A DNA stretch of 64,000 nucleotides, from positions 1,289,320 to 1,353,319 of the forward strand of contig NZ_RAPN01000001.1 of NCBI RefSeq assembly GCF_003610535.1, in the 5' to 3' direction. Shown here in pieces: positions 1,768 through 62,759 of the stretch. Under the pieces are notes generated by a model, which worked only from the letters and a program-made list of their open reading frames with translations, was not told where the DNA came from and ran no database searches. A program made the position numbers and the translations under genes. Every line of letters starts with the position of its first letter. Position 1 is the first letter of the stretch. Source of the DNA: Mangrovibacterium diazotrophicum. Its GTDB lineage: Bacteria; Bacteroidota; Bacteroidia; Bacteroidales; Prolixibacteraceae.

Positions 1768-1839
1768 GGCCCCATAGTTCAATGGATAGAATATCAGATT
1801 CCGGTTCTGACGATATGAGTTCGAGTCTCGTTGGGGTCA
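1768..1839 (+). tRNA. tRNA-Arg, anticodon CCG
   Basis: A cloverleaf can be drawn by eye. The acceptor stem pairs GGCCCCA (1768-1774) with TGGGGTC (1832-1838), with one G-T pair. The anticodon stem pairs TCAGA (1794-1798) with TCTGA (1806-1810) around the loop TTCCGGT, giving anticodon CCG at 1801-1803, which reads the Arg codon CGG. The T arm carries GTTCGAGTC. A1839 is the discriminator and CCA is not encoded. A promoter box precedes the gene and a terminator follows directly. Confidence 0.95.
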
Positions 1840-2026: not shown

Positions 2027-4300
2027 CTAATCAACAAATTCAAATATCGCTGTTTTCGTACTTTCTGAATTCAATCCAATCTCAACTCTGAATTCTCCGG
2101 CTTCCGCCTGGTACTCCAATTCCGAATTATAAAACATCAGATCGTCGACCGTAATTTTAAATCGAACAGTCTTTGTTTCACCCGGTTTCAGAAAAACCTT
2201 TTGAAAATGTTTTAACTCTTTTCGTGGTCGGGTAACCGAAGCCTCCAAATCCCGCAAGTAAAGTTGAACCGTTTCCTCGCCGGCCATTTCACCGGTGTTG
2301 GTCAGGTTAATCGTAGCCGTTAGCGTATCATTCTCTGCAAAAGCATTCTTGTCCAGCTGAATATCGCTCACATCAAACGAGGTATAACTTAAGCCAAATC
2401 CAAACGGATAAAGTGGCGTATTGGGAACGTCGAGGTAGCGACTCGTATATTTCACGCCTTCCCAAAACGGACGGCCAGTGGTTTTCATACTGTAGTACAC
2501 CGGCACCTGCCCCACTTTACGCGGAAACGACATGGTTAATTTTCCGGAAGGGTTGAAATCGCCGTAAAGAATGTCTGCCACGGCATTGCCGGTTTGCGAA
2601 CCTGCCGACCAACATTGCAGGATTGCGGCACAGTTTGCGTCTTCCCACTCCAGCGTGAGCGGCCGTCCGGTTAGCAAAACAAGCACCACCGGTTTTCCGG
2701 TTTCAACCAGCTTTTGCAACAGCTCTTTCTGCGAAGCCTGCAGGTTAATATCGGCCAAACTGGCTGCTTCACCGTTCATCACTGCAGATTCGCCCAAAAC
2801 GGCGACGACCACATCAGCAAACGTAGCTACTTCGATGGCCTCTTCAATCAGCTCCTCACTGCTTTGCTCATCCATCGGGTAACCAATCAGCTTTGCCAAC
2901 GCTTCGTCATCAGTTAAACGGGCGCCTTTGACATAGCTAACTGCTGTTCGCTTTCTCAGCCCTTCAAGCACCGTGATCACCTGCGAGGTATCACCATTCA
3001 ACACCCAGGTTCCCATGGTTGCCTTTTTCGAATCGGCCAATGGACCAACCACCGCGATCTTCTGCCCTTTCGTCAATGGCAAAACCGAACTTTCATTTTT
3101 CAGTAATACCGCAGACTTACGGGCTGCCTCCAGCGCGAGATTCATAAATTCCTCATTCTGTCCTTCCTCTGCGATGTTGTCTTTCAATCTCAAAAACGGA
3201 TCGTCAAACAAACCAAGCTGATATTTGGCTTCGAGAACGCGGCGGCAAGCCTGGTCGATTTCGTCCATGCTGACAGTGCCTTTTTCAAGCGAGTTTTTCA
3301 GTGTATTAACAAAGCCCTCGCTCACCATATCCATATCGATACCAGCGTCCAATGCCAATGCAGAGCAAGTTTCGAGATCGCCAATACCATGAGCTCCCAT
3401 CTCGCGGATAGCCGTATAGTCGGTGGCGATAAAACCATCGAAGCCCCAGTCTTTCCGCAGCACATCGTCAATCAGCCATTTGTTGGAAGTTGCCGGAACT
3501 CCGTTGATGTCGTTAAAGGCAGTCATCACAGAACCGACTCCCGCATCCACAGCTGCCCGGTACGGAGGCAGGTAATCCTGAAACATCTTGATTTCGCTCA
3601 TGTCCACCGTGTTGTAGTCGCGACCGCTTTCGCCAGCGCCGTAGAGCGCAAAATGTTTCACACAAGCCATCACCGCTCCGGGTTGAGCCATGTCTTCCCC
3701 CTGATAGCCTTTCACCATTGCCTTCGCGATTAACGAGCCCAGGTACGGATCCTCTCCGGCACCTTCAGCAACACGCCCCCAACGAGGATCACGTGACACG
3801 TCAACCATCGGCGAAAACACCCAGTCGATTCCGTCACTTGCCGCCTCTGTTGCTGCTGCGCGGGCGGTACGTTCAATCAATTCCGTATCCCAACTGCACG
3901 ACAGCGCCAGCGGAATAGGAAAAACCGTACGGTGCCCGTGGATGACATCCTGCGCAAAAATGATCGGAATCCCCAAGCGCGATTGTTCAACTGCCAGCTT
4001 CTGAATCTCCATCCGAGTTGACTTCGATTCGATATTGAAAAGACCGCCAACAAGTCCGTTCTTCACTTTCTCGCTCACACCGGAGTTGGCAGCAGCTCCG
4101 GTTTGGAGGCTGCCATCCCAGGCAAGGAGATTTAGTTGGCCTAGTTTTTCATCCAATGTCATCTTCGACATCAGAGCATCAATAAATAGTTTTCGCTCTA
4201 TCGATTTGTCAGCATTAACTCCTCCTGCCCAAAGGCAGATCGGGCAAAAAAAAGCCAATAAGATTAACGCTGACAATCGTTGACTACCAGTAAATTTCAT
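2027..4300 (-). CDS. Glycoside hydrolase family 3, BglX-like beta-glucosidase
   Basis: 757 residues with an N-terminal signal peptide (about residues 1-26), so it is periplasmic or exported. The GH3 N-terminal barrel is typical, with the CVKHFALYGAGESGRDYN segment around 213-230. The nucleophile is D294 in GFIATDYTAI. An alpha/beta sandwich domain and a C-terminal fibronectin III-like domain (about 670-755) follow. The family removes terminal beta-glucosyl residues, and some members act on xylosides. It is the last gene of the PUL1 series, 31 bp after the GH78-like gene. The exact linkage specificity cannot be read from the sequence. Confidence 0.93.
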   Translation of the reverse strand: MKFTGSQRLSALILLAFFCPICLWAGGVNADKSIERKLFIDALMSKMTLDEKLGQLNLLAWDGSLQTGAAANSGVSEKVKNGLVGGLFNIESKSTRMEIQKLAVEQSRLGIPIIFAQDVIHGHRTVFPIPLALSCSWDTELIERTARAAATEAASDGIDWVFSPMVDVSRDPRWGRVAEGAGEDPYLGSLIAKAMVKGYQGEDMAQPGAVMACVKHFALYGAGESGRDYNTVDMSEIKMFQDYLPPYRAAVDAGVGSVMTAFNDINGVPATSNKWLIDDVLRKDWGFDGFIATDYTAIREMGAHGIGDLETCSALALDAGIDMDMVSEGFVNTLKNSLEKGTVSMDEIDQACRRVLEAKYQLGLFDDPFLRLKDNIAEEGQNEEFMNLALEAARKSAVLLKNESSVLPLTKGQKIAVVGPLADSKKATMGTWVLNGDTSQVITVLEGLRKRTAVSYVKGARLTDDEALAKLIGYPMDEQSSEELIEEAIEVATFADVVVAVLGESAVMNGEAASLADINLQASQKELLQKLVETGKPVVLVLLTGRPLTLEWEDANCAAILQCWSAGSQTGNAVADILYGDFNPSGKLTMSFPRKVGQVPVYYSMKTTGRPFWEGVKYTSRYLDVPNTPLYPFGFGLSYTSFDVSDIQLDKNAFAENDTLTATINLTNTGEMAGEETVQLYLRDLEASVTRPRKELKHFQKVFLKPGETKTVRFKITVDDLMFYNSELEYQAEAGEFRVEIGLNSESTKTAIFEFVD

Positions 4301-4331
4301 GATCTGCTATTCGTTTAAAGTTCTTGCCTGT

Positions 4332-5975
4332 TTATTGCTGAAAGATTTCGGGGTATTTGCGGATAAAATAAACCGGCGTACAACTCCAGGCATGGCAATA
4401 ACTGTTGATCGGGAAAAAGTTGTACGGTGACAGAAAATCGTTGTTTGGATCATAAACTTCCCAGAATGTATCCGCGCCTTTCTCAACCATTCCGCCCCAA
4501 TAATTTACCAGCAACTCTTTGGCTTTGGCCTGCATGTTCGAATTAATTAGTGCCTGAATGAGATAGTGATACATGTAAGGGCCGCCCGGGGAAAGAGCTT
4601 CCGGCGTATTCATCACTGCCGTCAATACTTTCTGGCTTTGCTTCTCATTGAGCACGCCTCCGAGGATCATCCAAATTTGGGATGCGTACGAGATTTGCTG
4701 GTCGTCACCACAGGCAAACATCCCGGTCTTCGTGTTATACAAATTAGCCAGAGCGGCCTTTTTCATCTTTTTAATCAAAGCCGGAACTTCGGCGATTTCA
4801 TCCGTTTTGCCCAAAGCTTCAGCCAAGTCGAAAGTTTCGCTTAAAGCGAAAATCATTAATCCCTGGATGGCCGCATTTTTATTCAGCCCATCTTTCCAAT
4901 CGAAGAACAACCACCACTCTTTATTGGCCCGTTCATAGTCAACCAAACCGTCATCTCCCACATAGTTTTTAATGATATCCAACTGACGTTTGGCAACCGG
5001 CCACAATTCTTCAGCCGTGGCTTTATCATCAGTTGCAAGCAGGTAGTTTTTCAGGCTTACATTATACAGCAACGAATAGTCCATCAAACGTTGACCGGCT
5101 TGAGGATGTGGCTCCGGCTCTTCAAAAATAGTTCCCAAAACATAACCTTCGTCATCGCTTAACCCGGCCAAAATATAGAGACATCTTTTAGTCAGATTGT
5201 GATTTTCATAGGAGTAAACATTCGCAAGTGATTCCAAATACATATCGCCAACCCACAAGCGGCGATCGCGTTTGGGACCATCTTCGTAAACCGTCTGCAT
5301 ACATTCTTTCAGCGTCTTCAAACCGATTTCATCAATCTTTTTTACGATTGGAGAAGTCGAGGCGGCCAATGCCTCCGGCTGTTTAACTGCTGAGGTTAAT
5401 GCCTTAAACTGAATGTCGCTGATTCCAAAATCAAAATAAGGCGAGGCTCCCAACAATTCAATTTTGATGTAGCGGCAAGAAACCCGCCGAGTCAAGGTGT
5501 TGGTTGAAGGAACATTCATAATTGTCATTTGCTCGTCCTGCAACCAGGCGCGGCTGATTGCTCCCGGGAAAGGGTCAAAAGGTGTTGCTAACTCGGCCGG
5601 AACTTCGCTAAAAGTAAACCGGAACCGAACAGGCGAATCAGCTGCACCCCAAATTGTCTTCAAGTTAAACGTGAAATAGCCCGTGTAATGGTCGCCAAGA
5701 TCGACAACCACTTCTTTAATTTGCCGGATTGATTTGTTGTACAGCGAATCAATTGGTGCTATATTTTTCGCCTCCCAGCCTTGAAAAGCGTCCTCATTTT
5801 TGACTAACTCAACCAGAGTTGTTGGCTTAACAATCGTTTCCGTAAGTTTCGGTTTTAAAGCTTCAGCCTTTTCAACCCATTGTTTTCCGTTTGGGTAATA
5901 GTTTTGAGCCATTGCCCGACCGGATACGGCCAACAAAAGGACAAGGATAAAAATTTGGTAGTTTATTTTCTGCAT
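4332..5975 (-). CDS. GH78-like alpha-L-rhamnosidase (six-hairpin glycosidase)
   Basis: 547 residues with a signal peptide ending near AMAQ (about residue 23). An N-terminal beta-sandwich (about 60-195) precedes an (alpha/alpha)6 domain. The catalytic-region signature DGPKRDRRLWVGD, typical of GH78 and relatives, is present, as is a downstream TFWEVYD with the expected base Glu and a C-terminal YCHAWSCTPVYF. It is shorter than multi-domain GH78 enzymes (often 900 or more residues), lacking extra N-terminal domains. It lies between two GH3 genes with 31-32 bp gaps, so it belongs to the PUL1 operon. A related unsaturated-sugar or other six-hairpin activity is possible. Confidence 0.75.
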   Translation of the reverse strand: MQKINYQIFILVLLLAVSGRAMAQNYYPNGKQWVEKAEALKPKLTETIVKPTTLVELVKNEDAFQGWEAKNIAPIDSLYNKSIRQIKEVVVDLGDHYTGYFTFNLKTIWGAADSPVRFRFTFSEVPAELATPFDPFPGAISRAWLQDEQMTIMNVPSTNTLTRRVSCRYIKIELLGASPYFDFGISDIQFKALTSAVKQPEALAASTSPIVKKIDEIGLKTLKECMQTVYEDGPKRDRRLWVGDMYLESLANVYSYENHNLTKRCLYILAGLSDDEGYVLGTIFEEPEPHPQAGQRLMDYSLLYNVSLKNYLLATDDKATAEELWPVAKRQLDIIKNYVGDDGLVDYERANKEWWLFFDWKDGLNKNAAIQGLMIFALSETFDLAEALGKTDEIAEVPALIKKMKKAALANLYNTKTGMFACGDDQQISYASQIWMILGGVLNEKQSQKVLTAVMNTPEALSPGGPYMYHYLIQALINSNMQAKAKELLVNYWGGMVEKGADTFWEVYDPNNDFLSPYNFFPINSYCHAWSCTPVYFIRKYPEIFQQ

Positions 5976-6007
5976 GATGTAATATTTCTGAAGTTGATTA
6001 TTGGTGG

Positions 6008-8299
6008 TTAAAAGATAACTTGTTTACCGAGCTCGATCGCTGTTCTCAGCCGAATATCTTGGGACGAAGCGCCAATGAGGACGTCGTAAGTACCGGGCTC
6101 CGCGCTCCAGGCTTTCTGACCGGGATCATATTCTGCCAAATCTTGCGCTGTGACCTCAAATTTCAGGGTTTCGGATTCTCCGGGTTTTAATAAGGCGGTT
6201 TTCGCAAAATGTTTCAGCTGAATCATTCTCGAGTCTTTTGATTTCAGGTAAAGCTGAACCACTTCCTTCCCGTTGTTTACCCCGGTATTCGTTACGCTCA
6301 GCTCGATCTGGAATTTATGATCCGGGAGCGAATCCACCGAAAGATTGTTGTACGTAAAGTCGTTGTACGACAGACCGAAACCAAATTCGTAAGAAGTGGC
6401 AACATCTGCTCCCCGATAGTACCGGTAACCAACCGCAGTTCCTTCCGTGTAATCAGTTTGCTGCGGATTAGTTGACGGATCAGGAAAAAAGTTTGAAGAA
6501 GGAACATCACCGTACTTCACAGGGAAAGTCATCGTCAATTTACCGGATGGGGTCACGTCACCGGAAAGGATTTGGGCAATCGCCGTTCCGGCTTCCTGCC
6601 CGGGTTGCCAAGCCAGCACAATCGCATCTGCCTCATTTTTCCAGGAAGCGGTTTCAATCACTCCACCAATATTCAAAACAACGACCAGTTTCTTTCCTTG
6701 TGCATGGAAGGCTTTTGAAAGCTTACGGATCATTTGTTGCTCAATATCGGTGAGCTGAAAATCATCCGCCACTTTACGATCGGCAAATTCTCCTGAAGTT
6801 CGGGAAATAGTAAACAAAGCCAGATCGCATTCAGCTGCAAACTGCTTCAGTTCCGCTTCGCTCCAATTCTTTTCCTGCAACATGATATCGGGATCGAAAT
6901 ACGACTTCTTCTCCCCAATCCGCTCCTTCTCGGCTTGAACATGCTCGGCATAGGCTTTTTCAAACTCAGCCGGAATCCCGTAGCCAGACTTTTCAAGTCC
7001 TTGCTTTATCGAGACGGTGTACGCACTGTTCACATTTCCACTGCCGGTACCTCGTGAAATCGTCTCAAAACTAGCGATACCGAATGCTGCAATTTTAGAA
7101 ATCGCCTTACCCAGCGGAAGCGTATTCCGGTTGTTTTTAAGCAGCACCATCCCGTCGGTAGCTGCTTGTGCCGCAATTTTGGCGTGCGCCTTGAGATCAG
7201 GATTGTCGCTGTAATCATAGCCATTGAAACGGGGCGTTTGTTTGATAATATTGAGAATCCGATCAATATTCCGGTCTACAACGGCTTCATCCAAATCACC
7301 ATTCTGAACAGCTTCTGCAATCTGTTCAGCAATATATTTGCTTCCCGGCATTTGCAGGTCGTTCCCAGCCTTCACTTGTTGAATCCGGTCTCGTCCGGCA
7401 AACCAGTCAGTCATCACAAAGCCGGTGAAGCCCCAATCCTTTCGCAAGATCGAATCCAGCAAAACAGGATTCTCGGAACAATAAACACCTTTAATTTTGT
7501 TGTAAGCCGACATCACCGTCCAGGGATTCGATTTCTTAACCGCAATCTCAAAACCTTTGAGATAAATTTCATGCAATGTTTTCTCGTCGATTTCTGCATT
7601 GATCGACATGCGGTTTGTCTCGTTGTTGTTGGCCGCAAAGTGTTTAATTGAAGTTCCTACGCCAACCGACTGAACACCATTGACCATGGCTGCAGCCATC
7701 TCTCCTGACACAACCGGATCTTCTGAATAATATTCAAAATTACGCCCACCGAGTGGATTGCGGTGAATATTTAATGCCGGCCCCAATAAGATGTCGACTC
7801 CATATTCTTTGGCTTCCGTTCCCATGCAAACTCCAACCTGGCGAACCAAATTGGTATCCCAACTACAAGCCAGCAACGACTCGATCGGGAATGCCGTCGC
7901 ATAAAATGTTTTTGTGGTGTCAGGACGCATCGGATCGATACGCACACCTGCAGGACCATCAGCCAATACGATAGCCGGTATTCCCAAACGAGGAATAGCA
8001 AAGGTTGTTCCGGCAGCACCGGGCACTAATTTTTTGGTTTGTCCCACCACCGGCGGTTGCGAATCGAACAAGGTATCTGCACCACCAAAACCGGAGGGAT
8101 AACCACGGGGAAAGCCGGGATCGTCGCCTACCAGAAGTTGGGCTTTTTCCTCCAAGGTCATCGCCGCAATCACTTCCTGGTTGGTTGATTTTCCTAAACG
8201 AATGTTTTGGCCCGAAGGCGAACAACTAACGAGCATTGCTGCAATTCCCGCAAGCCCGATCGTTCTCAATGTGTTAAGCTTATTCGTTATTTGTTTCAT
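6008..8299 (-). CDS. Glycoside hydrolase family 3 lipoprotein, beta-glucosidase-like
   Basis: 763 residues with a lipoprotein signal (AMLVSC, C26), so it is predicted to be anchored in an envelope membrane. The GH3 barrel carries LADGPAGVR (about 112-120) and SIKHFAANNNETNR (about 217-230), with nucleophile D298 in GFVMTDWFAG. The C-terminal sandwich and a fibronectin III-like domain follow. It belongs to a different GH3 branch from the gene at 2027. The pair could divide the work between surface and periplasm or between linkages. It starts 39 bp after the GH5 stop codon. Confidence 0.93.
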   Translation of the reverse strand: MKQITNKLNTLRTIGLAGIAAMLVSCSPSGQNIRLGKSTNQEVIAAMTLEEKAQLLVGDDPGFPRGYPSGFGGADTLFDSQPPVVGQTKKLVPGAAGTTFAIPRLGIPAIVLADGPAGVRIDPMRPDTTKTFYATAFPIESLLACSWDTNLVRQVGVCMGTEAKEYGVDILLGPALNIHRNPLGGRNFEYYSEDPVVSGEMAAAMVNGVQSVGVGTSIKHFAANNNETNRMSINAEIDEKTLHEIYLKGFEIAVKKSNPWTVMSAYNKIKGVYCSENPVLLDSILRKDWGFTGFVMTDWFAGRDRIQQVKAGNDLQMPGSKYIAEQIAEAVQNGDLDEAVVDRNIDRILNIIKQTPRFNGYDYSDNPDLKAHAKIAAQAATDGMVLLKNNRNTLPLGKAISKIAAFGIASFETISRGTGSGNVNSAYTVSIKQGLEKSGYGIPAEFEKAYAEHVQAEKERIGEKKSYFDPDIMLQEKNWSEAELKQFAAECDLALFTISRTSGEFADRKVADDFQLTDIEQQMIRKLSKAFHAQGKKLVVVLNIGGVIETASWKNEADAIVLAWQPGQEAGTAIAQILSGDVTPSGKLTMTFPVKYGDVPSSNFFPDPSTNPQQTDYTEGTAVGYRYYRGADVATSYEFGFGLSYNDFTYNNLSVDSLPDHKFQIELSVTNTGVNNGKEVVQLYLKSKDSRMIQLKHFAKTALLKPGESETLKFEVTAQDLAEYDPGQKAWSAEPGTYDVLIGASSQDIRLRTAIELGKQVIF

Positions 8300-8338
8300 C
8301 TTGAATATTTATCTGGAGTATGATTTATTGGTTTGTAG

Positions 8339-10573
8339 TTACAAAACGACCAGCTTTTCCAGCAACTGTCCCATCTTTAAATAGTAGACTCCGGCATGTA
8401 GAAATGAAAGATCCACTGATCCGGTTCCGTTAACAAGCTGATCAAAAATCTTGACACCATTGGTGTTATAAATAGCTAATTCTGTTTCATCCAGGTTGTC
8501 TATGGTGTAGTTCAATGTGCGATCCTGGGATAAAGGATTGGGGAAAACGCTTGACGAACTTTTAATGTCGTTTACCGAAGTACTGATATCTTTCTTTCCC
8601 CAGTAATAAACTTCCCAACCGTCAATTCCGGTCCGGTTAGCATTAATCGGAATACTTCCCCCTTCCATTGAAACAAAGCCTCCTTTTCCAAGCAGGGCCA
8701 TTTTCCCGCTGGCTAAATCAATCCAATAAAACTTTTCGTTTTCACCGATTTCATCTTTGTCGCAGGTCATCGAACTGGTCCCGTTGTTCGAACTCACGTA
8801 TTTTCCGTTATTACCTTTCAAGGCAATCATCCCATCACCGGCATCAACAACCAAAAAATATTTGTCATCAGTCAAACTGGTCGAACTGCAGGTCATGGCC
8901 GAATTTCCGCTTTCGGAGCTGATGTATGTATAGTTATAAGCTTCAAAACTGATGTAATCACCAATACCGCGATAAGGAACACTCGTCGTATAGCTTCGGA
9001 TTGTATCGATTAAACCGGCATTTCTACGAAACTTGGAAGTCACAAACTTGTCCCATTTCTGTTTGATCAGTTCTTCGCTATCCCAGTTTAAGTCGGGAGT
9101 TGTATTGGTATTTCCGAGATACAATCCCCAGTTCAGGGTTGAAGTAATGTTTTTGTAAGTCCAGTTCGACCAGGCGCCGTTAAAACAGTTCATGCCGTTC
9201 ATCCATTTGCTCCACAAATCGAGGTTATTCCAGAAGTTGTACTCGCCCGCAAGAACCGGTGTGTTCCATTGCAATTGATGCCAGGCCATATCGCCCAAAG
9301 CCCAGTTGATAAATCCATTTTGGGAATCCCAGTTGTAGTAGTCGGTATTGTAATAATGTGCTTGATATAGCATATTCTCCCATCCGCGCTGGCTTGGCGA
9401 ATCAATCATATCGAAGTTATAAAAGGCCTGTACCGAAATAATATGATCGGCATCGATGGCACGAACGGCCTTGTATATGAGATCATACATATCGCTCGTT
9501 GTGAACGATGAGTTGCTACTCACAGGTTCGTTCATCAGATCGTACGCACAAACTGCAGGTTCACCTTTGAAATGGGTGGCAACTGCTTTCCACAAATCAA
9601 CCGTCATTTGCTGCGATTCCGGATCGTTCCACAATTCGTTGGTTGTCGCCTGTCCACTCGTGATATAGCCGTCCAAACCACCCGGAGCTCCGTGCAAATC
9701 GAGCATAACATAAATTTCCCGCTGGGAGCATTGCTCAACAACCCAATCCAACTGTTTAAACCCATTGGCTTTAATCGAGCCGTCGTTGTTCATCACTTCC
9801 ATCCAATAAAACGGAACACGAACCATATTCATTCCCATCGCTTTAATACTGTCCAGATCAACCGTCGTGATCCACTGATCCTGATAATAATCCCAAAGTT
9901 CATCGGCTTTATCTACTCCAAAGCGATCATAGGTTGCATTCCGTACCGTGAAATCGTCATTCATGTAGAGGTAAAACTCGGCAATAGACCAGGTACTTGT
10001 TGAATTCCCTTTCTGCAATATTTTGATGTAACGGGCTTCCAGCGCGCCAAGATAAACATCAACCACGCTGGTGGTGGCGGATCCGGTAGCTACTTCAGTC
10101 CAACTGGTACCATCCGTTGAGATCGAGATACGATAGTAGGATGGTGATTCTTCCGCTACTCCGCCAGACTTCAACGAAATTTTGTCAAAAACGATATTCT
10201 TTTGACAATCGATTGTGATGCCTTGACCAGCCGTAGCGACCTGCGCGGTGCCCGAATTCCATTTGGTTGACTCGTCGCCATCCAGTATGTAGGCTAAATT
10301 ATCACCGGAAACGGAGCTTGTGTTTGACGCTGTCCAGCTATCCCGGTTCAGCAACCCGTAGCCAAGTGGACCGATCCAATACTCCATGCTCAACCACGAG
10401 CCCAAGTTTGTTCCCCGCAGGGCAACCACATCTCCTTCTCCCGATTTATTTCGAACATAAGGGCCCGACGCTTTCAAAAAGTCTGACGAATCAAACTGTC
10501 CGTAACTTTTGTCAACAGCAGTAAAAAGGAGCAGGATTAGAATGGGAAGTAGAAAAATCGTTCTTGTTTTCAT
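8339..10573 (-). CDS. GH5 glucanase with inserted F5/8-type domain, fascin-like domain and T9SS sorting domain
   Basis: 744 residues with a signal peptide of about 25 residues. GH5 begins at LRGTNLGSWLSMEYW (about 52-66), resembling exo-beta-1,3-glucanase-type GH5. It is interrupted at about 77-206 by a discoidin/F5-8C-like carbohydrate-binding domain, then resumes at MGMNMVRVPFYW. The acid/base is E349 (DLMNEP) and the nucleophile E444 (VLAGEYNFW). A beta-trefoil fascin-like region (about 538-655) follows, with repeated YISSESGNSAMTC and YVSSNNGTSSMTC units. The C-terminus (about 665-744, FPNPLSQ..., ending YYLKMGQLLEKLVVL) is a type A T9SS signal, so the enzyme should be exported across the outer membrane. 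It is the first enzyme after susD in PUL1. Confidence 0.88.
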   Translation of the reverse strand: MKTRTIFLLPILILLLFTAVDKSYGQFDSSDFLKASGPYVRNKSGEGDVVALRGTNLGSWLSMEYWIGPLGYGLLNRDSWTASNTSSVSGDNLAYILDGDESTKWNSGTAQVATAGQGITIDCQKNIVFDKISLKSGGVAEESPSYYRISISTDGTSWTEVATGSATTSVVDVYLGALEARYIKILQKGNSTSTWSIAEFYLYMNDDFTVRNATYDRFGVDKADELWDYYQDQWITTVDLDSIKAMGMNMVRVPFYWMEVMNNDGSIKANGFKQLDWVVEQCSQREIYVMLDLHGAPGGLDGYITSGQATTNELWNDPESQQMTVDLWKAVATHFKGEPAVCAYDLMNEPVSSNSSFTTSDMYDLIYKAVRAIDADHIISVQAFYNFDMIDSPSQRGWENMLYQAHYYNTDYYNWDSQNGFINWALGDMAWHQLQWNTPVLAGEYNFWNNLDLWSKWMNGMNCFNGAWSNWTYKNITSTLNWGLYLGNTNTTPDLNWDSEELIKQKWDKFVTSKFRRNAGLIDTIRSYTTSVPYRGIGDYISFEAYNYTYISSESGNSAMTCSSTSLTDDKYFLVVDAGDGMIALKGNNGKYVSSNNGTSSMTCDKDEIGENEKFYWIDLASGKMALLGKGGFVSMEGGSIPINANRTGIDGWEVYYWGKKDISTSVNDIKSSSSVFPNPLSQDRTLNYTIDNLDETELAIYNTNGVKIFDQLVNGTGSVDLSFLHAGVYYLKMGQLLEKLVVL

Positions 10574-10727: not shown

Positions 10728-12239
10728 TTAATAACCAGGATTTTGCTCAATATTCGGATAGATATTGATTTCGCGTTCAGGTATTGGGAACAATAATCTG
10801 AAATCCTGAAAATTGTATGCTGTGCTTGCTAGTTCAACACCGGCTGGGTAATAGTAGTCTGTTGGGTTTGCTTTAATTTTTGCAAACTGAGCTGACATTA
10901 CTTCGGCAGCATTTCCCCAGCGCACCAAATCAGGCCAGCGTTTATTTTCGAAGGCCAACTCAACGCGACGTTCAGTCATGATGGCCTCGCGCATGGCTGT
11001 TTGGTCAGAAATTGACAAAGCACTCAAACCGGTACGCGAATGTGCATGAACCATATTCAGGTAGGTCAAAGCTCCCGAAACGTCACCCTGTTCGTTCTTT
11101 GCTTCGGCTATCATCAATAGCACCTCAGCGTAGCGGTAAACCGGCCAGTCATCGTCGGTTACCTGATGTTGAACAGCTCCGTGCACATATTTTTTCACAT
11201 AAGGAATATTGTCGTACCCTTCACCTGAATAGAACTGAATAGAAGCATCGAAACGCAGGTCTCCACTTTCATACGCAGCAATCATTTCAGGAGTCGGGGT
11301 ATTCCATCCACCGTAACCGTTTGTGTTCCCGTTCGGAAAGCCACTGATAACGCCGGGATTCGACAAAATCGGTAAAAAGTTGTAAGCAAACATACTGTTC
11401 GCACTAGCCGACAAATCGTCGCTGTACTGAACCTCGAAAATCATCTCCGAATTATTCTTGTTACTCGGATCAAAAATCGCGGCGTAATCAGACTGCAACG
11501 AGTAACCTGAAACGTTGCTCAGGGCAGTTTCTGCATTCGCCCACTCTTCCAGCACTAGATAAGCATTTCCAAGCAAAGTATAAGCGGCACCATTTGCCAC
11601 GTATCCTTTCTCCTGTTCTGAGAACGACGGGAGAATCTCTGCGGCTAATGTCGCATCTGCAATAATCTGAGTATATATCTCGGCAACAGTCGCACGCGTT
11701 TGCAACGTCTCTTCGTAACTGGTCGGGGGAGTCGTCACCAATGGTACGCCGCCAAAATATTGCACGAGGTCGAAATAGGCAAAAGCTCTCAGGAAGAGTG
11801 CCTGTCCCTTGTAGTTGTTCCTGGCATCATCCGAGATATCGGCATCATCAATATATTTCAAAATCTGGTTGGCACGACCGATAATGATAAAGTCGTTTTG
11901 ATATTTGTTAGAAACAGGACCGCCGTTCGAATCATCAATGAACTGATCCACATATTCGCGATCGGCATAACCTCTGTTCGATGTATTGTAAATAAAGCCG
12001 GTATTATCCGAGCGCATTTCACCCATCGACCAGGCACCGTAATCGGCTGCACCTGTTCCGTATAAGTTTCGCAGCGGAACATAGTTCCCCACAATAGCCA
12101 GCTGAAAATCAGCCTCAGTCTCATAAAAGTCGCCGGCGGAAATCACCGTTTCCGGGTAAAGCGTCAGGAAATCGTCTGAGCAGGAAGTCAGGCCCAAACA
12201 CACTCCCAATACCAGGTATATTAATTTCTTTGTATTCAT
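10728..12239 (-). CDS. susD: SusD/RagB-family nutrient-binding lipoprotein, PUL1
   Basis: 503 residues. The lipoprotein signal ends at LTSCSDD (C20), and the start of the mature protein, DDFLTLYPETVISAGDFYETEADF, is typical of SusD. A TPR-rich middle with ALFLRAFAYFDLVQYFGGVPLVT follows, and the C-terminus is NIEQNPGY, a family hallmark. The protein caps the SusC channel and captures oligosaccharide at the cell surface. It lies 21 bp downstream of susC. No separate SusE/SusF-like binding protein is encoded in this PUL. Confidence 0.96.
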   Translation of the reverse strand: MNTKKLIYLVLGVCLGLTSCSDDFLTLYPETVISAGDFYETEADFQLAIVGNYVPLRNLYGTGAADYGAWSMGEMRSDNTGFIYNTSNRGYADREYVDQFIDDSNGGPVSNKYQNDFIIIGRANQILKYIDDADISDDARNNYKGQALFLRAFAYFDLVQYFGGVPLVTTPPTSYEETLQTRATVAEIYTQIIADATLAAEILPSFSEQEKGYVANGAAYTLLGNAYLVLEEWANAETALSNVSGYSLQSDYAAIFDPSNKNNSEMIFEVQYSDDLSASANSMFAYNFLPILSNPGVISGFPNGNTNGYGGWNTPTPEMIAAYESGDLRFDASIQFYSGEGYDNIPYVKKYVHGAVQHQVTDDDWPVYRYAEVLLMIAEAKNEQGDVSGALTYLNMVHAHSRTGLSALSISDQTAMREAIMTERRVELAFENKRWPDLVRWGNAAEVMSAQFAKIKANPTDYYYPAGVELASTAYNFQDFRLLFPIPEREINIYPNIEQNPGY

Positions 12240-12260: not shown

Positions 12261-15200
12261 TTAGAAGTTTAGATTAAGACCAAAGGTGAAAGTTCTCGGA
12301 ACAGGGTAAGTCGTTGCATCAGCGCCCGAATTGATTCCACCCGCAGCCGAAACTTCGGGGTTGTTACCCGGGTATTTTGTAAACACAAAAGCCTGTTGAA
12401 TACTTCCGTAGACGCGCACACTTTTAATGTTATTGATACGCTTCAAGGGCAGGTTGTAACCTAAAGTGATGTTTTTGATGGTGAAGTAACTGGCATCGTA
12501 AAGCCATTGAGAACCGGCCCAGTCGCGTTCGTAACCGGTTGTTCCCGATTTTACTTTACCGTATTTACCATCTCCGGGATCATCAGCCGATCTCCAGCGA
12601 CGATCAACCGCTTTGTACACATTGAAGTTACCATCGAGGTTTGCCGCAAAACGATCCATCAGGTTAAAGATCTTATGCCCGTATGCGCCTTGGCAAACAA
12701 CTGCCAAATCGAAGTTTTTGTAATAGAATGTGTTGGTCAAACCATAAATCGCTTTGGGAGCGGCACTACCCAAAACTGTTTTATCACGGTCGTCGTTGTA
12801 TACCCATCCATCGCCATCCTGATCCTTAAACTTGATGGTACCAACTTCAGCTCCCTGGCGTCCGACTGCGTCAACTTCTTCCTGGGTATAGTACAATCCG
12901 TCCCATTCCAGACCATAAAGTTGTCCCAGCGGCTGTCCGACTTCAGTAATTGTATAGTCGCCATAAATCGTTGCATTGGTTGTCCCCAACTCAAGAGCTT
13001 CGTTTCGGTTAAAGGCGATATTGAAATCGGTGTCCCACTTAAACTTACCGGTTAAGTTTTTGGTGTTAATGGTGACCTCGTGTCCCCACAACTTGATTTT
13101 TCCAACGTTGGTCGTAAAACTGTAGAAGCCAGAGGATATTGGAATGTCTACCGTGTAGAGCAAGTTGTCTGTAATTCTTCTGAAGTAGTCGTAGGTCACC
13201 GAAATTCGATTATCGAACAATCCCAGGTCAAGACCGAAGTCAACCTCCGTTGTATTTTCCCAGCCCAAATCTTCATTATTTAAACCTGCGAGACTTTTCC
13301 CGTTAGTGATCACGCCGTTTACCGGATTGTTGGTATCCACGATATTGGAATACTGCGTGTAGTTACCGATGTTGTTGTTACCGGTTACACCCCAGCTACC
13401 TCTCAGTTTCAGGAAAGAAATTTGAGGAACTGCCGACATAAATCCTTCTTCGGAGGCCACCCAACCAAGCGAACCTGATGGGAAATCACCCCAGCGATTT
13501 TGAGATCCAAAACGAGAAGAACCATCACGACGATAAGCCAATGAAACCAGGTATCGATTTTTATAGTTGTAATTGATGCGGCTAATCAAGGAAGCCAAAG
13601 CCCAATCCTGGATATCAGTATTTCCGGTGATTGTCGTTGCTGCATTCAGGGTTTGCACACGATCATCCGGGAAGCCGGTTCCGTAAAGATATCCGCTCTC
13701 ACCATGGGCGCGCTGCGCTGTGTAACCAGCCAAAACTTCGAAGTTATGATCATTAATTTCCTTATTGTAGGTCAACGTATTTTCCCACAACCAGGAATAA
13801 CCGTACGAGTTGCTGTGCGTGGCATAAATACGGGAAGCGTCGTCCGGATTACCGGGGTTGAAAATACTACCAGCTGCTGCAGGGTAAAAGAAGTCGTTCA
13901 CATTGTTACCCAAATCAACACCAATCGATGACTTGTACTTTAAGCCGGTAATTGGCTCGTACTCTACAAAACCAGTTGCCAGCAAACCGATGTTTTTGGT
14001 TTTGTTCTTCACGATCTGCACCTGGTTGTACCAGTTTGGCCCGGGCGAAGTCCCGTAAGTTCCGGTTTCGCCAGTTGTGCCCGACCATGTTCCGGTATTC
14101 ACAGGAATCGTTCCGTCCTCATTAATATACGGCGCCAAGGGTGACGTTAAAATTGCCGACTGAACAATACTTGGTGAGTTGTACCAAATACCATCACTCT
14201 GAGGAGTATTGTTGGTTGTTACCGTATTGGAAACGTTCACCCCAACTTTTACTTTATCGTTGAATTTATATTCAGAGTTCACGCGCAACGAAAAGCGTTT
14301 GTAATCTGAGTTCAACAGGATACCTTCCTGATCGAAATAACCTGCTACAACAGAGGACTTAAATTTGTCTTTACTTGTACTGTAGCTAACCGAATAATTT
14401 TGAATAACTGCTGCACGAGTAACGGCATCAAACCAATCGGTTCCTTCACCGTATTGATCCGGATTTTGGTACATCTCCGGAACACTCCAGCCGTTTTCCT
14501 CGAAGATTTCCTTCTTAAACTTGGCAAACTCCCGGGCATTCATCATATCCGGACGCCCTTTTTCAGGCACCATCTGAACACCAGCATAGGCGCTCACGCT
14601 CATACTGGACTTACCAAACTTTGCCTGCTTTGTTGTGATCAGCACAACACCGTTTGCCGCGCGAGATCCATACAATGCTGTTGACGAAGCATCTTTCAAA
14701 ACAGAAATTGATTCAATTTCATCCGGGTTGATGTTGGCAATGTCGCCCGTCAACGGAAATCCATCAACGACGTAAAGCGGATCGTTTCCGGCGGAAATAG
14801 AAGCCTGACCGCGAATTCGAATTGACATTCCCTGTCCCGGAATACCGGTTGTTTGGTTGATTTGTACACCGGCTAACTTACCCTGCAATTTTTGAGTCAG
14901 CTGCGCTGTTGGAATACTTTCCAAATCTTCCGTTTCGATATTCTGAATCGCACCGGTAATATTTCGTTTGGATTGAGAACCGTATCCAATCGCAACAACT
15001 TCGTCCAAACCAACGGCGTCTTCCCGCATTACCACATTAATCTCAGGCGACTCCCCAACTGTAAATTCTTGGCTGCCCATACCGACGAATGAGAATAGCA
15101 AGACACTTTCGCTGGTCAATCCTCCGATTGTATAACGACCTTCAAAATCTGTAATCGTACCTGTTGTAGTCCCTTTCAAGACCACTGTCACTCCTGGCAG

Positions 15201-15644
15201 CGGGCTTCCGGCGGCATCAGTAACCAACCCAGTCACTTTTCCCGTTTGCTGCTGAACAGCTTGCCCGGAATTTTTACTGGTCGATGGCGTAATAATGATC
15301 AAATTTTTGTCGGTAATCGTGTATTTTACTTTTTGGTTGACGAAGACCTCCTCCAGGAGCGCTTCAATATTTGCCTGATCAACATTGACATTGACCTTTT
15401 CGTCAATATTCAGACGTTCATCCTGCAACAAAAACTTATATTGGGTTTGTTCTTCGACCTGCCGAAGCACTTCACGTATCGATACGTTTTTTAGGTTTAG
15501 TGAGAATTTTGATTGTTGTGAATAGACACTCGCAGACACCGTGAGCGAGAGCAATACAACAAAAACGAATGTTAGTTTCATAATTCGTAAAAGCATTTTG
15601 ACATGAGGACTCAATAAGGACCTCACAATCCAGTTTTTTTTCAT
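12261..15644 (-). CDS. susC: SusC/RagA-family TonB-dependent outer-membrane transporter with STN domain, PUL1
   Basis: 1127 residues. A long basic N-terminus precedes the signal peptide. An STN domain (about 45-125), a CarboxypepD-regulatory-like domain (about 137-215), the plug (about 222-330) and a 22-strand type barrel ending in LNLNF follow. The STN domain normally contacts a FecR anti-sigma factor, which fits the FecR and sigma genes directly upstream. It imports glycan oligomers with SusD. A predicted antisense RNA covers its leader (see 15658-15741). Confidence 0.96.
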   Translation of the reverse strand: MKKNWIVRSLLSPHVKMLLRIMKLTFVFVVLLSLTVSASVYSQQSKFSLNLKNVSIREVLRQVEEQTQYKFLLQDERLNIDEKVNVNVDQANIEALLEEVFVNQKVKYTITDKNLIIITPSTSKNSGQAVQQQTGKVTGLVTDAAGSPLPGVTVVLKGTTTGTITDFEGRYTIGGLTSESVLLFSFVGMGSQEFTVGESPEINVVMREDAVGLDEVVAIGYGSQSKRNITGAIQNIETEDLESIPTAQLTQKLQGKLAGVQINQTTGIPGQGMSIRIRGQASISAGNDPLYVVDGFPLTGDIANINPDEIESISVLKDASSTALYGSRAANGVVLITTKQAKFGKSSMSVSAYAGVQMVPEKGRPDMMNAREFAKFKKEIFEENGWSVPEMYQNPDQYGEGTDWFDAVTRAAVIQNYSVSYSTSKDKFKSSVVAGYFDQEGILLNSDYKRFSLRVNSEYKFNDKVKVGVNVSNTVTTNNTPQSDGIWYNSPSIVQSAILTSPLAPYINEDGTIPVNTGTWSGTTGETGTYGTSPGPNWYNQVQIVKNKTKNIGLLATGFVEYEPITGLKYKSSIGVDLGNNVNDFFYPAAAGSIFNPGNPDDASRIYATHSNSYGYSWLWENTLTYNKEINDHNFEVLAGYTAQRAHGESGYLYGTGFPDDRVQTLNAATTITGNTDIQDWALASLISRINYNYKNRYLVSLAYRRDGSSRFGSQNRWGDFPSGSLGWVASEEGFMSAVPQISFLKLRGSWGVTGNNNIGNYTQYSNIVDTNNPVNGVITNGKSLAGLNNEDLGWENTTEVDFGLDLGLFDNRISVTYDYFRRITDNLLYTVDIPISSGFYSFTTNVGKIKLWGHEVTINTKNLTGKFKWDTDFNIAFNRNEALELGTTNATIYGDYTITEVGQPLGQLYGLEWDGLYYTQEEVDAVGRQGAEVGTIKFKDQDGDGWVYNDDRDKTVLGSAAPKAIYGLTNTFYYKNFDLAVVCQGAYGHKIFNLMDRFAANLDGNFNVYKAVDRRWRSADDPGDGKYGKVKSGTTGYERDWAGSQWLYDASYFTIKNITLGYNLPLKRINNIKSVRVYGSIQQAFVFTKYPGNNPEVSAAGGINSGADATTYPVPRTFTFGLNLNF

Positions 15645-15657
15645 ACTTTTGGTTGTT

Positions 15658-15741
15658 ATTAGATTAGTAATTACCTACTGTTGGAGCAGTTAGGTGATAA
15701 TTCATTCAAACCGCCATGTGTTGGAGCACTCGGCGGTTTTT
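15658..15741 (+). ncRNA. Candidate antisense RNA over the susC leader, PUL1
   Basis: The plus strand carries TACTTTTG at 15644-15651, an exact TAnnTTTG box whose first base lies over the A of the susC start codon. A start about 7 nt downstream and the plus-strand terminator at 15708-15741 would give about 84 nt with two hairpins (15673-15695 and 15708-15739). Both contain GTTGGAGCA. No -33 element was found. The position resembles cis-antisense RNAs described at Bacteroides PULs (DonS type). This is a prediction only. Confidence 0.35.
15708..15741 (+). terminator. Plus-strand intrinsic terminator in the fecR-susC gap, PUL1
   Basis: The stem AAACCGCC (15708-15715) pairs with GGCGGTTT (15732-15739), has an inner GTG/CAC pairing, and runs into five T on the plus strand. 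The flanking genes are both on the minus strand, where no T-tract follows, so the orientation is antisense to the operon. Confidence 0.55.
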
Positions 15742-15744
15742 CCT

Positions 15745-16713
15745 TTAGTTTCGTTTGATTAAATAATGATTCCCTTCTTTTTTATAATTTAACTCACTTG
15801 CAAGTGATATTGCATCTAAGATTTCTTCGACATTTTCAACGTCGAATACACCAGAGTAGTGGATTTCCTGAGCAATGCTTTCCGGGTAAAATTCAATGTC
15901 TACATTGAATTTTCGCTCCAGTTTCCGGGCCAGCGATCCCATGTCTTCTTCGTGCAGGTACATTTTGTTACTCGTCCACGAACTATACTCTCCGGGATTA
16001 ACCTCGGCAAGTAAAAACTGCTTTTTCTTCTTTTGGAAAGTGGCCATTTGTCCGGGTTCGAGCTTTATCTCTTTCATCCCCGGTGAGTTGATCCCGATTG
16101 AGCCTTGCTGCAACACCGTTAGTACTTCAGGATCTTCCTTGTAAGCCGAAACATTGAATTTGGTTCCGTAAACCTTAATTTGAAAATCCTTGACGTCGAC
16201 AACGAATGGAACATCGCTATGTGTTACTTCAAAAAACCCTTCGCCCGTTAATTTTACTTCTCTCGAATCTTTGCCGAACGTATTGGAGTACGACAGCTGA
16301 GAAAGCGAGTTTAGCCAAACTTTAGTACTATCGGGCAGGTAAACAAGGGTGCGGTTTCCTAATTCAGTTTGAACTGCAATCACCGCATTTTGGGGAGTAT
16401 TGCCAAACTGAATCCAGGTGAATAGTCCGATCATCAATAGCACGCTTGCGGCTACGCTTATACCTGATGTCAGGAAGAATCGTTTCCGATCCCGCTTTTT
16501 CGCCTCAAGCTTCCGATTGAGTTCGGCAAAAGCACGTTTCTGATCTACTTTGTGATACCCCTGAAGATTCGAGGATTCGTTCCAGATGGCTTTTACTTTT
16601 TCAAAAAGAGCTTGATTTTCCGGCTGGGTCATTTCTTTCTGAAAAAGAGTTCTCTCTTCGTCAGAAGCGCTATCGGAAAGGATCGCGAGGAATAGTTCGT
16701 AAATGGCCTTCAT
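15745..16713 (-). CDS. FecR-family anti-sigma factor, PUL1
   Basis: 322 residues. A cytoplasmic N-terminal part (about 1-78) is followed by one membrane segment (about 80-104). The periplasmic FecR domain (GNRTLVYLPDSTKVWLNSLSQLSY, then VKLTGEGFFEV) and a C-terminal DUF4974-like domain follow. It should hold the cognate ECF sigma factor until the SusC STN domain signals. It lies 66 bp after the sigma gene and 100 bp before susC. Confidence 0.93.
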   Translation of the reverse strand: MKAIYELFLAILSDSASDEERTLFQKEMTQPENQALFEKVKAIWNESSNLQGYHKVDQKRAFAELNRKLEAKKRDRKRFFLTSGISVAASVLLMIGLFTWIQFGNTPQNAVIAVQTELGNRTLVYLPDSTKVWLNSLSQLSYSNTFGKDSREVKLTGEGFFEVTHSDVPFVVDVKDFQIKVYGTKFNVSAYKEDPEVLTVLQQGSIGINSPGMKEIKLEPGQMATFQKKKKQFLLAEVNPGEYSSWTSNKMYLHEEDMGSLARKLERKFNVDIEFYPESIAQEIHYSGVFDVENVEEILDAISLASELNYKKEGNHYLIKRN

Positions 16714-16779: not shown

Positions 16780-17334
16780 TCAAATAAATTCAGGGTAGGC
16801 TGTTTCCAGACACTCCTTAACGTATTTTAAAGCCTTACCAATCTGAGCTTTAACCGTCTTTATCGAAATGTGATTTTTTTCTGCAATTTTTTCCTGTTTC
16901 TCGTCGTCAAACCGACTTTCTTTGAAAATTTCCTTGCAGCGGGGAGGAAGCTTCTCGATACAATCAAATAAATACTGACGAAATTCTTCAGATTCTATTT
17001 CGGACAAATTAACCGATAAATCCTCTTCAGTTTTCGCCATTTTATAATAGTCTATTCTGACGCTGGCCGACTTAATTTTATTCAAACACCTGTTTTTTAC
17101 GGCTGTGTAGAGGTATGCTTTAATCGTAATTTTAACATTCAGTTGCTTTCGATTATTCCAAAGTTTCTCGAAAACATCCTGAACAACATCTTCTGCGACA
17201 TAGATATCCGCAACAAAACGAACCGCATAATTACACAAAGGCTGGTAGTAATGGGAAAAAAGATGCTCAAAGGCTCCAAAGTCTCCTCCTTTCATCTTCG
17301 TAACAAACAAATATTCGTCAAACTCTTGCGGCAT
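16780..17334 (-). CDS. RNA polymerase ECF-type sigma factor, PUL1
   Basis: 184 residues. Region 2 (FEHLFSHYYQPLCNYAVRFV, then AEDVVQDVFEKLWNNR) and region 4 (LPPRCKEIFKESRFDDEKQEKIAEKNHISIKTVKAQIGKALK) are both clear. It is the first gene of the sigma-FecR-SusCD series and probably drives transcription of PUL1 once released by the adjacent FecR protein. Confidence 0.95.
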   Translation of the reverse strand: MPQEFDEYLFVTKMKGGDFGAFEHLFSHYYQPLCNYAVRFVADIYVAEDVVQDVFEKLWNNRKQLNVKITIKAYLYTAVKNRCLNKIKSASVRIDYYKMAKTEEDLSVNLSEIESEEFRQYLFDCIEKLPPRCKEIFKESRFDDEKQEKIAEKNHISIKTVKAQIGKALKYVKECLETAYPEFI

Positions 17335-25687: not shown

Positions 25688-28600
25688 CTACTCTTCCGAA
25701 CTCTCATCCGACAAAAAAGCTTTGTCGTTGTAAGTCATGATTTTTAAATACAATACCGGGATCGTCAGCAAAGCCATGATCATACTCCAGACCACGCCAA
25801 AAGCAATCACGCTGGCCAGTGGCGCCCAAAGTGAGGATCCGGACACAATCATCGGCACAACCCCAAAAGCCGCGGCCATTGCCGTCAGGAAAATCGGGCG
25901 CAACCGGCGTTTTGCCGATTCTACAGCTGCTGTTCGAATATCGTAACCTTCGGCCAGCAATTCATTGGTATGCTCAATCAGAATAATGGCATTTCGCACC
26001 ACAATTCCCGACAAGCTGATGATTCCCAGGAAAGCCGTGAAACCGAAATTGCTGTGGGTGATTGCCAAACCGGAAATGGCACCGAACAAACTCAAAGGGA
26101 TCGTCAGCATCACCATGCCCACCTCTTTGATGTTCCGGAATTGCAGCAAAAGAACAAGGAAGATCAGCACCAAGCTGATTCCAAGGGCAGTCACCATTCC
26201 GCCCATGACTTCCGCTTTATTCGCATATTCACCACCGTACTCTATCCGAAAACCTGCGGGTAAATCAATTTCGGCAATTTTAGGTTGAATGGCGGCCAAC
26301 AAGTCAGCAGGCAGAACATTGCCGGTAGTTTCACTGCCAACGGTCAGACAACGCATTCCGTTGCGATGTTTGATTCGGCCAGTTTGCCATTCGGGAACAA
26401 TGCTCGCAATTTGCCGCAACGGCACGCTTTCGCCGGTGACCGGCGACTCGATATAAATATTCTCAAGCGACTCGATATCCTGCCGCTTATCGGCTTCCAT
26501 ACGCAAAACAATGTTAATCGCATTATCGCCTTCGTACATTTCGGACACCGACGAACCACTCGTACTCAAATACATGAGCTTCGCAATGCTTTCGGTCGTA
26601 AATCCCAACCGCGAAGCCTGGCTGTTCAATTCAATGTTCACCCCAAAATAATCTTCCTTAAAATCGTCGTGAACGAAATTACTCCCCTCAGCATCGCGAA
26701 CAATATTCTTCACCTGGCTACCTATCGCTTTCAGGGTTTGCAGGTCATCACCAAAAATCCGCACTTCCACCGGCGATTCCAGCGGCTGTCCCTGTTGCAT
26801 CAACTTGACCTGAACTGTACCTTCCGGCACAAGGTCTTCGACCTCCGTTGAAAGTTCCTCGGCTAATTCTTCGGTGGTTTTATCGCTGGTCGTGTTGATT
26901 AGCATTTGGGCGTAATTGCTCACCGGAAATTCAGGCGAAAAATTGTAATACACCCGTGGTGCACTCATGCCCGAGAAAGTTGCGTACGAAACAACCCGTT
27001 TATCGTCTTTAATTTGATTTTCAATTTTCAAGATCGATTCCAGCGTCTTTTCGACCTTCGTTCCGGTTGGCATCCAAAGCTCCACTACAAACTGGTTGCG
27101 CTCGGCTGCCGGGAAAAATTTCTGTCCAACGAAAAATTTAAAAATGAAACCGGCCAGCACAATCGTGAGCAAACTGCCGCCAATTGTGAGAATCGCATGT
27201 CGTGCACATTTATCGATGAGGCGGCTGTAGCCGTCCTGCATCAGGTCGAGCAATGAGCGTCTTTTCTTTTGCTGCTGTTCCTGCCCGTGATCGTGCAGAC
27301 CTTTTTTAATAAACGCATAGCACAACATGGGGGTAAGCAACATCGCAACCACAAACGACGACGACAAAGCAACAGTAACCGTAATCGGAAGATCGTGGAT
27401 AAATTCGCCGATCGCTCCTGTCAGGATGATCATTGGCATGAATGCCGCGATGATTGTGACCGTAGCTGTCAAAATAGGAACGACAAGCTCGTATGCACTT
27501 TTCCAGGCTGCCGTCCATCGTTTTTCGCCCTGATCCAAAAGCTCAACGTAATTATCCGCAACAACGATCGCGTCGTCAACCACCATACCCAACACGACAA
27601 TCAAGGCAGCGAGCGACACCTGGTGCAACTCAATGCCAATGGCATTCAACACAGCAAATGTAACAGCCACCGTTATCGGAATAGCCGTTGCGGCAACCGC
27701 TGCAATCCGGAAAGGCAGCAACAAAATGATCACGATAATCACAGAAACAATGGCAATCAGAAACTCGCGCAAAAAGTGGCCAACATTCTGATTGACCAGC
27801 TCGGGTTGATTGGCCACCAGACTGATTTGCACATTCGAAGGAATCAGCTCCTTCACTTTCTCTATCGCCTGATCAACCTCTTCGCCGTACTGCACAATAT
27901 TGTTTCCTTCATTCATCTGCACTGCAACGATCAGCGCTTTCTGCCCGTTGACACGTAAGTTATTCTCCGGTTCTTCGTACTCGCGTTTTATCGTGGCAAT
28001 ATCGCTCAGGCGAATGACTGCTCCTGCATCTGAAGTACCGATAATCTGGTTGGCCAACTCTGTTTCGGTATTGTAATAACCAAGTGTGTGGATGGCGACA
28101 TTATCCTGATCCGTCTTGATCTCGCCACCCGAACTGATCTTATTTTGCGATTGAAGGATATTGACAACCTGTTGCAGGTTCACATGGTATTGCGACAGCT
28201 TATCGGGATTGAAATACACCGAAATCTGCTCCTTCTGCTCCCCGATTCGACGGAGCTTGGAGGTCGCCGGGATCGTCCGGATTTGGTCTTCCAGAAGCGT
28301 GGCATATTCTTTCAGCTGCGGATAAGTGGCTTCATCAGATTCCATACTGATCAACAAGGCTTCCGTATCGCCAAAATCCGAATTCACAATCGGACCTATC
28401 ACGCCATTGGGTAATTCGAGCACCCGAGCCACAATGAGTTGGTGCCGCAACTTGCTCCAAAAAATCTCCGGCTCTTTAATTCCATCGTTCAACCAAACAT
28501 GAATAACCACCTTGCCGTCGCTGGTCGTCGAATAGGTTTTTTCTTTTCTGACTTCCGGGAATTCGAACAAATACTCCTCCAGTTTGGTGGTTAGCTGCTT

Positions 28601-38289: not shown

Positions 38290-38308
38290 AAATTTACGTT
38301 TGTAGAGT

Positions 38309-38377: not shown

Positions 38378-38389
38378 AGCTTTTTAAGA

Positions 38390-62568: not shown

Positions 62569-62581
62569 AAATTTGAAATGT

Positions 62582-62700: not shown

Positions 62701-62759
62701 CATTAGGTTTTCATCGTACGTTTTTTTCGTTTAGGTTAAGACTATCGGTTCGTTCTTGT

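Follow-up and report, generated by a model that had tools for sequence, protein, structure and literature searches.

In the passages of the DonS literature available to us, the DonS family consists of cis-antisense RNAs of 78–128 nt in the PULs of B. fragilis (PMC7366714). DonS-like RNAs of B. thetaiotaomicron were put at 10 and later at 32 (PMC7366714, PMC10994844, PMC11697453). DonS is described as a repressor of its PUL whose mechanism is unknown (PMC11697453). Some antisense-PUL pairs of B. thetaiotaomicron are positively correlated (PMC10994844), which leaves repression by any given antisense RNA uncertain. The FopS RNAs of B. thetaiotaomicron pair with transcripts for SusC-like transporters close to the start codon and thereby repress their translation, and the available passages give them sigma-ABfr promoters and a terminator hairpin (PMC11697453). 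ColE1 RNA I kisses RNA II through three stem-loops (PMC8683028). We recognised no report of a susC antisense RNA outside Bacteroides among titles and the starts of abstracts. A flavobacterial transcriptome paper (PMC9723704) treats antisense RNAs in general and has the 2016 DonS paper in its references; its available passages hold no susC case.

We analysed a stretch of 64,000 nucleotides (the window) from a 5.8-Mb genome of the Bacteroidota, family Prolixibacteraceae. On the minus strand, PUL1 of this window begins with genes for an ECF sigma factor and a FecR anti-sigma factor; those for SusC, SusD and four glycoside hydrolases follow:

16780–17334, minus strand: ECF sigma factor (TIGR02985)
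15745–16713, minus strand: fecR-type anti-sigma factor (PF04773, PF16344)
12261–15644, minus strand: susC (TIGR04056), with an N-terminal extension of about 135 aa ahead of the TIGR04056 match
10728–12239, minus strand: susD (PF07980, PF14322)
2027–10573, minus strand: four glycoside hydrolase genes (GH5, GH3, GH78, GH3; Pfam)

We take the N-terminal extension of SusC to be STN-like. The FecR_C Pfam model matches N-terminal parts of SusC-size frames of this genome near the cut-off (for example C1:1327261-1327467), hinting that the extension is related to FecR_C. The long open reading frame at 25688–28780 encodes an RND permease and does not add a fourth susC to the window. At gathering scores, Rfam matches a single element of the window, a tRNA gene (1768–1839, plus strand).

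The fecR-susC gap of PUL1 is 100 bases long and is filled by a predicted antisense unit:

15644–15651, plus strand: TAnnTTTG (TACTTTTG), the −7 box of the predicted antisense promoter, read from the sequence
15655–15659, plus strand: predicted antisense RNA start, placed 4–8 nt downstream of the box
15670–15698, plus strand: 5' hairpin of the predicted antisense RNA (fold)
15679–15688, plus strand: apical 10-mer TGTTGGAGCA, first exact copy, in the 5' hairpin
15708–15739, plus strand: terminator hairpin with arms AAACCGCC...GGCGGTTT (fold)
15719–15728, plus strand: apical 10-mer TGTTGGAGCA, second exact copy, in the terminator hairpin
15737–15741, plus strand: T tract closing the terminator stem; of the five T, three are counted in the stem, and CC follows

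An earlier note on this DNA had proposed a plus-strand terminator in the gap, an exact TAnnTTTG over the susC start codon 57 bp before it, and an RNA of about 84 nt. All of this held up. The hairpin and its T run are present, the box is exact and shares one base with the start codon (the complement of the A in ATG), the distance from box to terminator stem is 57 bases, and box and terminator together predict an RNA of about 83–89 nt, a length derived from sequence alone. The note had overlooked the 5' hairpin, whose apex is identical to that of the terminator hairpin over 10 bases, 40 bases apart. Both hairpins fold better than any of 200 shuffles: the terminator stretch (15706–15741) at −17.1 kcal/mol (shuffle mean −7.3, z −4.4) and the 5' stretch (15668–15703) at −12.5 kcal/mol (z −4.0). 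The predicted RNA region as a whole (15657–15745) has a fold z of −3.8. Taken alone, the PUL1 site is nevertheless unconvincing, because TAnnTTTG is not enriched window-wide (55 found, 49.7 expected) and a simple terminator scan did not report the terminator hairpin. By energy the stem of this hairpin favours neither strand (−16.5 antisense, −16.7 sense), and the T run is a short one. No Rfam family matches the gap, even at E values up to 5. What convinces is recurrence.

Box and hairpin occur at all three fecR-susC PULs of the window, as the earlier note had stated:

38295–38302, plus strand: PUL2 antisense box TACGTTTG, exact, 7 nt off the start codon
38342–38374, plus strand: PUL2 antisense terminator hairpin with a 7-nt loop (GUACCAG) and a T run to 38377 (fold)
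62568–62575, plus strand: PUL3 antisense box TAAATTTG, read from the sequence
62625–62657, plus strand: PUL3 middle hairpin with a 7-nt loop (CUGGUAA) (fold)
62660–62694, plus strand: PUL3 antisense terminator hairpin, T run at 62696–62700 (fold)

The fold z is −5.2 for the PUL2 stretch 38305–38385 and −7.8 for the PUL3 stretch 62582–62704. The ECF-sigma setting claimed for all three was found for PUL1 and PUL2; for PUL3, no ECF sigma gene lies inside the window.

We then scored the start context of susC in 86 fecR-susC pairs (out of 96 loci) from four genomes of the genus. Forty-six pairs came from the host genome; Mangrovibacterium lignilyticum and Sunxiuqinia sp. SZUA-417 are among its genus-mates. 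Controls were 263 mechanically called genes from a 400-kb sample of the host genome. Seen from the sense strand the box reads CAAANNT-ATG, with five fixed positions. It was exact in 60 of the 86 pairs versus none of the 263 controls; 56 of these boxes stood at the first ATG and four at a later in-frame ATG, an option denied to the controls. Four of the five positions were present in 19 more pairs versus 13 controls. An exact box anywhere from −25 to +3 was found in 65/86 pairs versus 3/263 controls. The conserved positions of the start context are the fixed ones of TAnnTTTG, while both n vary. The caution that A-rich start-codon contexts can create the box by chance is therefore not borne out by the 263 controls, nor by the 11 control genes that begin Met-Lys-Lys, none of which exceeds three of the five fixed positions.

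In the host genome at least four box positions were found in 41 of the 46 fecR-susC pairs and in none of the 18 susC genes without an upstream fecR (exact, 0/18). These 18 were drawn from 40 retrieved sequences among 56 SusC matches; one locus, L252, was left out, its leader being the same as that of the fecR-linked L020. At one susC with no fecR nearby, L264, we noted a three-of-five box (CTTAGATTTATG) and, by eye, a seemingly decayed hairpin; these may be relics of a unit whose fecR was lost.

TAnnTTTG occurs at 2.29 per kb upstream of control genes in the sense direction, at 0.92 in the antisense direction and at 0.27–0.34 in coding sequence, and by these densities it behaves as a promoter box would in this genome. 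A −33 box was sought for the antisense promoters and none was found. The bases after the susC start are also unusual: eight A at +4 to +11 were present in 47/86 genus susC genes versus 0/263 controls. Both this A run and a preference for AAA agree with a T tract directly ahead of the antisense box, and codons 2–4 look as if selection acted on the DNA, beyond the protein alone. Lysine codons 2–3 are AAA in 146 cases and AAG in 5 in genus susC, versus 88 and 35 in controls.

Hairpins could be compared between strands in 82 of the 86 gaps, four being dropped for gap length. A box with at least four positions and a hairpin occurred together in 78 gaps; two gaps had neither, one the box only and one the hairpin only (Fisher p 0.003). 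In the host genome, an antisense hairpin of −12 kcal/mol or lower was found in 42 of 45 gaps versus 21 of 120 control upstream stretches (100 nt each, sampled from the 263). Outside the measured 82, the leaders of two broken genes (L032, L060) carry the hairpin by eye. L060 is a fecR-susC leader with an exact box and a hairpin seen by eye, in front of a susC frame that is broken soon after its start. Predicted antisense RNAs have a median length of 81, and 51/79 fall within the published 78–128 nt.

The layout occurs in relatives too. The orthologue in Sunxiuqinia SZUA-417 (L146, SusC 92% identical) retains the box and the two hairpins with their two apices, and Draconibacterium mangrovi (L147, 66%) retains the box and one strong hairpin with a different loop; the loss in operon-keeping relatives that the earlier note proposed to look for was thus not seen in these two. 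Among 91 fecR-linked SusC-type genes from the order, class, phylum and named genomes (L146 lies on the contig already counted as L032), the box was exact in 29, had four of five positions in 20 and fewer in 42. Many of these 42 are receptors that follow fecR almost without a gap. Without an upstream fecR, 1/18 genes of the wider set had an exact box and 3/18 four of five positions. Box and hairpin were found together in 6/6 gaps of Draconibacterium mangrovi, 4/5 of Dyadobacter soli, 2/5 of a Parabacteroides, 1/6 of Chitinophaga alhagiae and 0/3 of Bacteroides luti. Over these five genomes, the 25 measured gaps comprise 13 with both, 5 with the hairpin only, 1 with the box only and 6 with neither. 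A set from the genus Bacteroides, to which B. luti belongs, gave 17 measurable gaps, 7 with both, 4 with the hairpin only, 3 with the box only and 3 with neither; nine further rows had gaps too short or too long, and the B. luti rows are also in the five-genome count. Box and hairpin are less regular in Draconibacterium, Parabacteroides, Chitinophaga, Dyadobacter and Bacteroides than in the host's own genus, and on these counts the antisense layout is not universal in the phylum. The recurring layout is nonetheless real and widespread, since it precedes nearly every fecR-linked susC that we checked in this genome and is also found in distant relatives.

Would the RNA itself matter, or just its promoter? 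At least two hairpins below −4 kcal/mol were present in 110 of 129 leaders. Stems of paralogous leaders look very unlike, yet in some leaders unlike stems carry equal apices: PUL1 and its orthologue, L008/L050/L081 (CTGGTAA), L014, L029 (TTGGTAG), L092, L065, L062 and L149/L159 (CTGCGAA). Unclustered, 14/110 leaders had shared apices versus 1.8 in permuted sets, and none of 2000 permutations gave as many. Eight of 60 leader clusters share at least six apical bases, one of them (L072) from a gap that is not of the antisense type. With complete linkage and one random leader per cluster, a mean of 6.7 shared at least six apical bases versus 0.8 permuted. A coarser single linkage with alphabetical representatives, which merged unlike leaders, left 3/56 sharing at least six (138 of 5000 permutations gave as many) and 1/56 sharing at least seven (897 of 5000). 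TTGGTAG was found in 6, and YTGGTA in 13, of the 175 strong hairpins of the survey. From the sequence, the twin equal apices are a hint of loop-loop contact.

Two further ideas about the loops found no support. Loop 'barcodes' specific to each PUL do not exceed chance, with 40 distinct 7-mers in 42 terminators of the host genome against a column-shuffle mean of 41.1. Nor do the loops look like a conserved protein or trans-target site: between related leaders their rate of change is much the same as that of the sequence around them (60/304 sites in loops, 159/1565 in stems, 483/2785 elsewhere). That loops change more than stems is expected if both strands change together.

Loops that change at the pace of the surrounding sequence would also suit a model in which the start-codon promoter acts by transcription interference only, through collision or occlusion, and the RNA is inert. 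The position of the box at the start codon, the most constant feature of all, speaks for this model as well. We consider it unlikely: an inert RNA sits poorly with stems that are better conserved than the sequence around them and with the two or more hairpins of most leaders, and interference gives no reason for equal apices in twin hairpins.

The conserved features may alternatively serve the sense strand, the start context as a translation signal of susC and the hairpin as an mRNA processing or attenuation element. Control start regions are indeed also A-rich, the sense strand folds too (−12 kcal/mol or lower in 27/45 host-genome gaps versus 27/120 control stretches), and many gaps hold a short sense leader ORF, though PUL1 does not. 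A start context with C at −7, T at −1 and no fixed base at −2 or −3 is not, however, a general one, given 0/263 exact controls, and the strand comparison points the other way. In 75/82 gaps the antisense fold of the best hairpin is the more stable one, in 7/82 the sense fold. G.U pairs make up 166 of 1127 pairs in the antisense fold versus 37 of 968 in the sense fold, and a T tract (at least five T in the first eight bases beyond the stem) follows the hairpin in 50/82 gaps on the antisense side versus 2/82 on the sense side. When related leaders were compared (21 pairs, each counted in both directions), one-sided stem changes yielded 26 antisense wobbles, 8 sense wobbles, 19 Watson-Crick pairs and 32 broken pairs; two-sided changes yielded 17 Watson-Crick pairs, 6 antisense wobbles, 2 sense wobbles and 9 broken pairs. 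The broken pairs, and the seven hairpins with the better sense fold, speak against the antisense reading. In L146, the orthologue of PUL1, a stem pair read by eye is G.U on the antisense strand but A.C on the sense strand. One element without the other occurs in just 2/82 gaps. A sense-strand role is on this evidence quite improbable. Action in trans on other mRNAs through the apical loops, in the manner of FopS, is slightly less probable still: FopS does repress SusC-like transporters in B. thetaiotaomicron in the passages cited (PMC11697453) and repeated apices resemble repeated seeds, but the apical 7-mers differ among PULs at about the column-shuffle level and drift between relatives, and the PUL1 gap has no Rfam match.

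The leader ORFs deserve a description of their own. Very short sense ORFs lie between the fecR stop and the antisense terminator, for example in L024, L058, L190, L323 and PUL3 (62703–62714, minus strand). They often have the form (A-run)-TTGCCTATG with a stop at once or after 1–3 codons; PUL1 has none. GCYTATG was found in 38 of 145 gaps (1.4 expected), three matches beginning inside fecR. For 127 ATG in 85 leader segments, a stop falls within four codons in frame in 53 cases and in the other frames in 35 and 22; shuffled segments gave 22–24 per frame and at most 33 in frame. Immediate stops numbered 10, versus 5.2 in shuffled segments (maximum 10). The ORF is perhaps a start-stop leader ORF. 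Five Dyadobacter leaders (L157, L158, L161, L165, L177) have a longer ORF whose peptide contains PPT, PPS or PPP, right before the stop in four of the five (MKFTSKPPT, MRRSRKPPT, MMKILLKPPS, MIRYANPPP) and inside a 14-residue peptide in L157. We take these to resemble polyproline stall peptides.

Taken together, these results suggest, with a probability of about 80%, that the fecR-susC gap is a DonS-type cis-antisense gene whose RNA represses its own PUL; from sequence features we infer transcription, repression and kissing. A housekeeping-type (sigma-ABfr-like) promoter with its −7 box across the susC start codon would fire away from susC and yield an RNA of about 83–89 nt that stops at the terminator just before fecR. 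With the terminator so located, the sigma and anti-sigma genes would escape the antisense RNA. Complementary to the susC leader, the RNA would hold susC down while the inducing glycan is lacking or running out. It would do so through base pairing with the leader, begun by loop-loop contact of the hairpins and leading to a duplex that decays or blocks translation, or else through promoter and polymerase interference. The two transcripts would most likely form a sugar-gated pair: with no inducer, the antisense promoter would be active and its RNA would pair with the susC leader; once inducer is present, transcription driven by the ECF factor would cross the antisense promoter and silence it. As the antisense unit fills the 100-base gap of PUL1, the sense susC promoter is expected inside fecR or ahead of it; otherwise the two genes would share a transcript. 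More tentatively, and with the odds somewhat against it, the fecR-linked SusC genes of Bacteroidales, Chitinophagales and Cytophagales may share an ancient antisense module, with a box at the start codon and lysine codons, a terminator ahead of fecR and apical loops particular to each PUL, in some cases twinned, that kiss the cognate leader like ColE1 RNA I.

The scattered antisense RNAs of Bacteroides PULs thereby become a rule that can be tested on sequence: where fecR precedes an N-terminally extended susC at a gap of about 75–200 bases, an antisense unit is expected in the gap. If the rule is true, many ECF-controlled glycan systems of the phylum would have a second, RNA-based brake of simple design, a promoter at the start codon and a terminator that spares fecR. 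One genome would offer about 45 natural paralogous sense-antisense pairs, useful for studies of specificity; were the module ancient, each cell would run about 45 antisense circuits in parallel, each for its own nutrient system.

How does the unit compare with the known systems? Like FopS and GibS of B. thetaiotaomicron, which work with RbpB, the predicted RNAs would be small RNAs controlling PULs. Unlike the PUL1 unit, FopS and GibS act in trans through a single-stranded 5' seed, and 9/14 are intergenic, in the passages available (PMC11697453). Like ColE1 RNA I (RF00106), the PUL1 unit would be a cis-antisense RNA of about 100 nt with successive hairpins and a terminator at its end, and the UUGGUAG apex occurs in two of the three hairpins of RNA I (L234:645-749, alignment read by eye). 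Unlike RNA I, its presumed target is a chromosomal mRNA leader instead of a replication primer, units of this kind often have one or two strong hairpins, and the PUL1 gap does not match RF00106; the resemblance is one of form, drawn by analogy. The comparison with DonS made in the earlier note agrees with the published passages. Like DonS, the PUL1 unit lies opposite the 5' end of the susC homologue of its PUL and has its own box and terminator, with a size predicted from its letters of 83–89 nt versus 78–128 nt; part of the Bacteroides set (7/17 gaps) shows this architecture as well. Unlike DonS, it belongs to another lineage, is near-universal in one genome and carries twin equal apices in a minority of its members. 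The assignment to the class rests on position, size and architecture as published in those passages. The class, DonS-type cis-antisense RNA, is thus already known, and the members described here are new.
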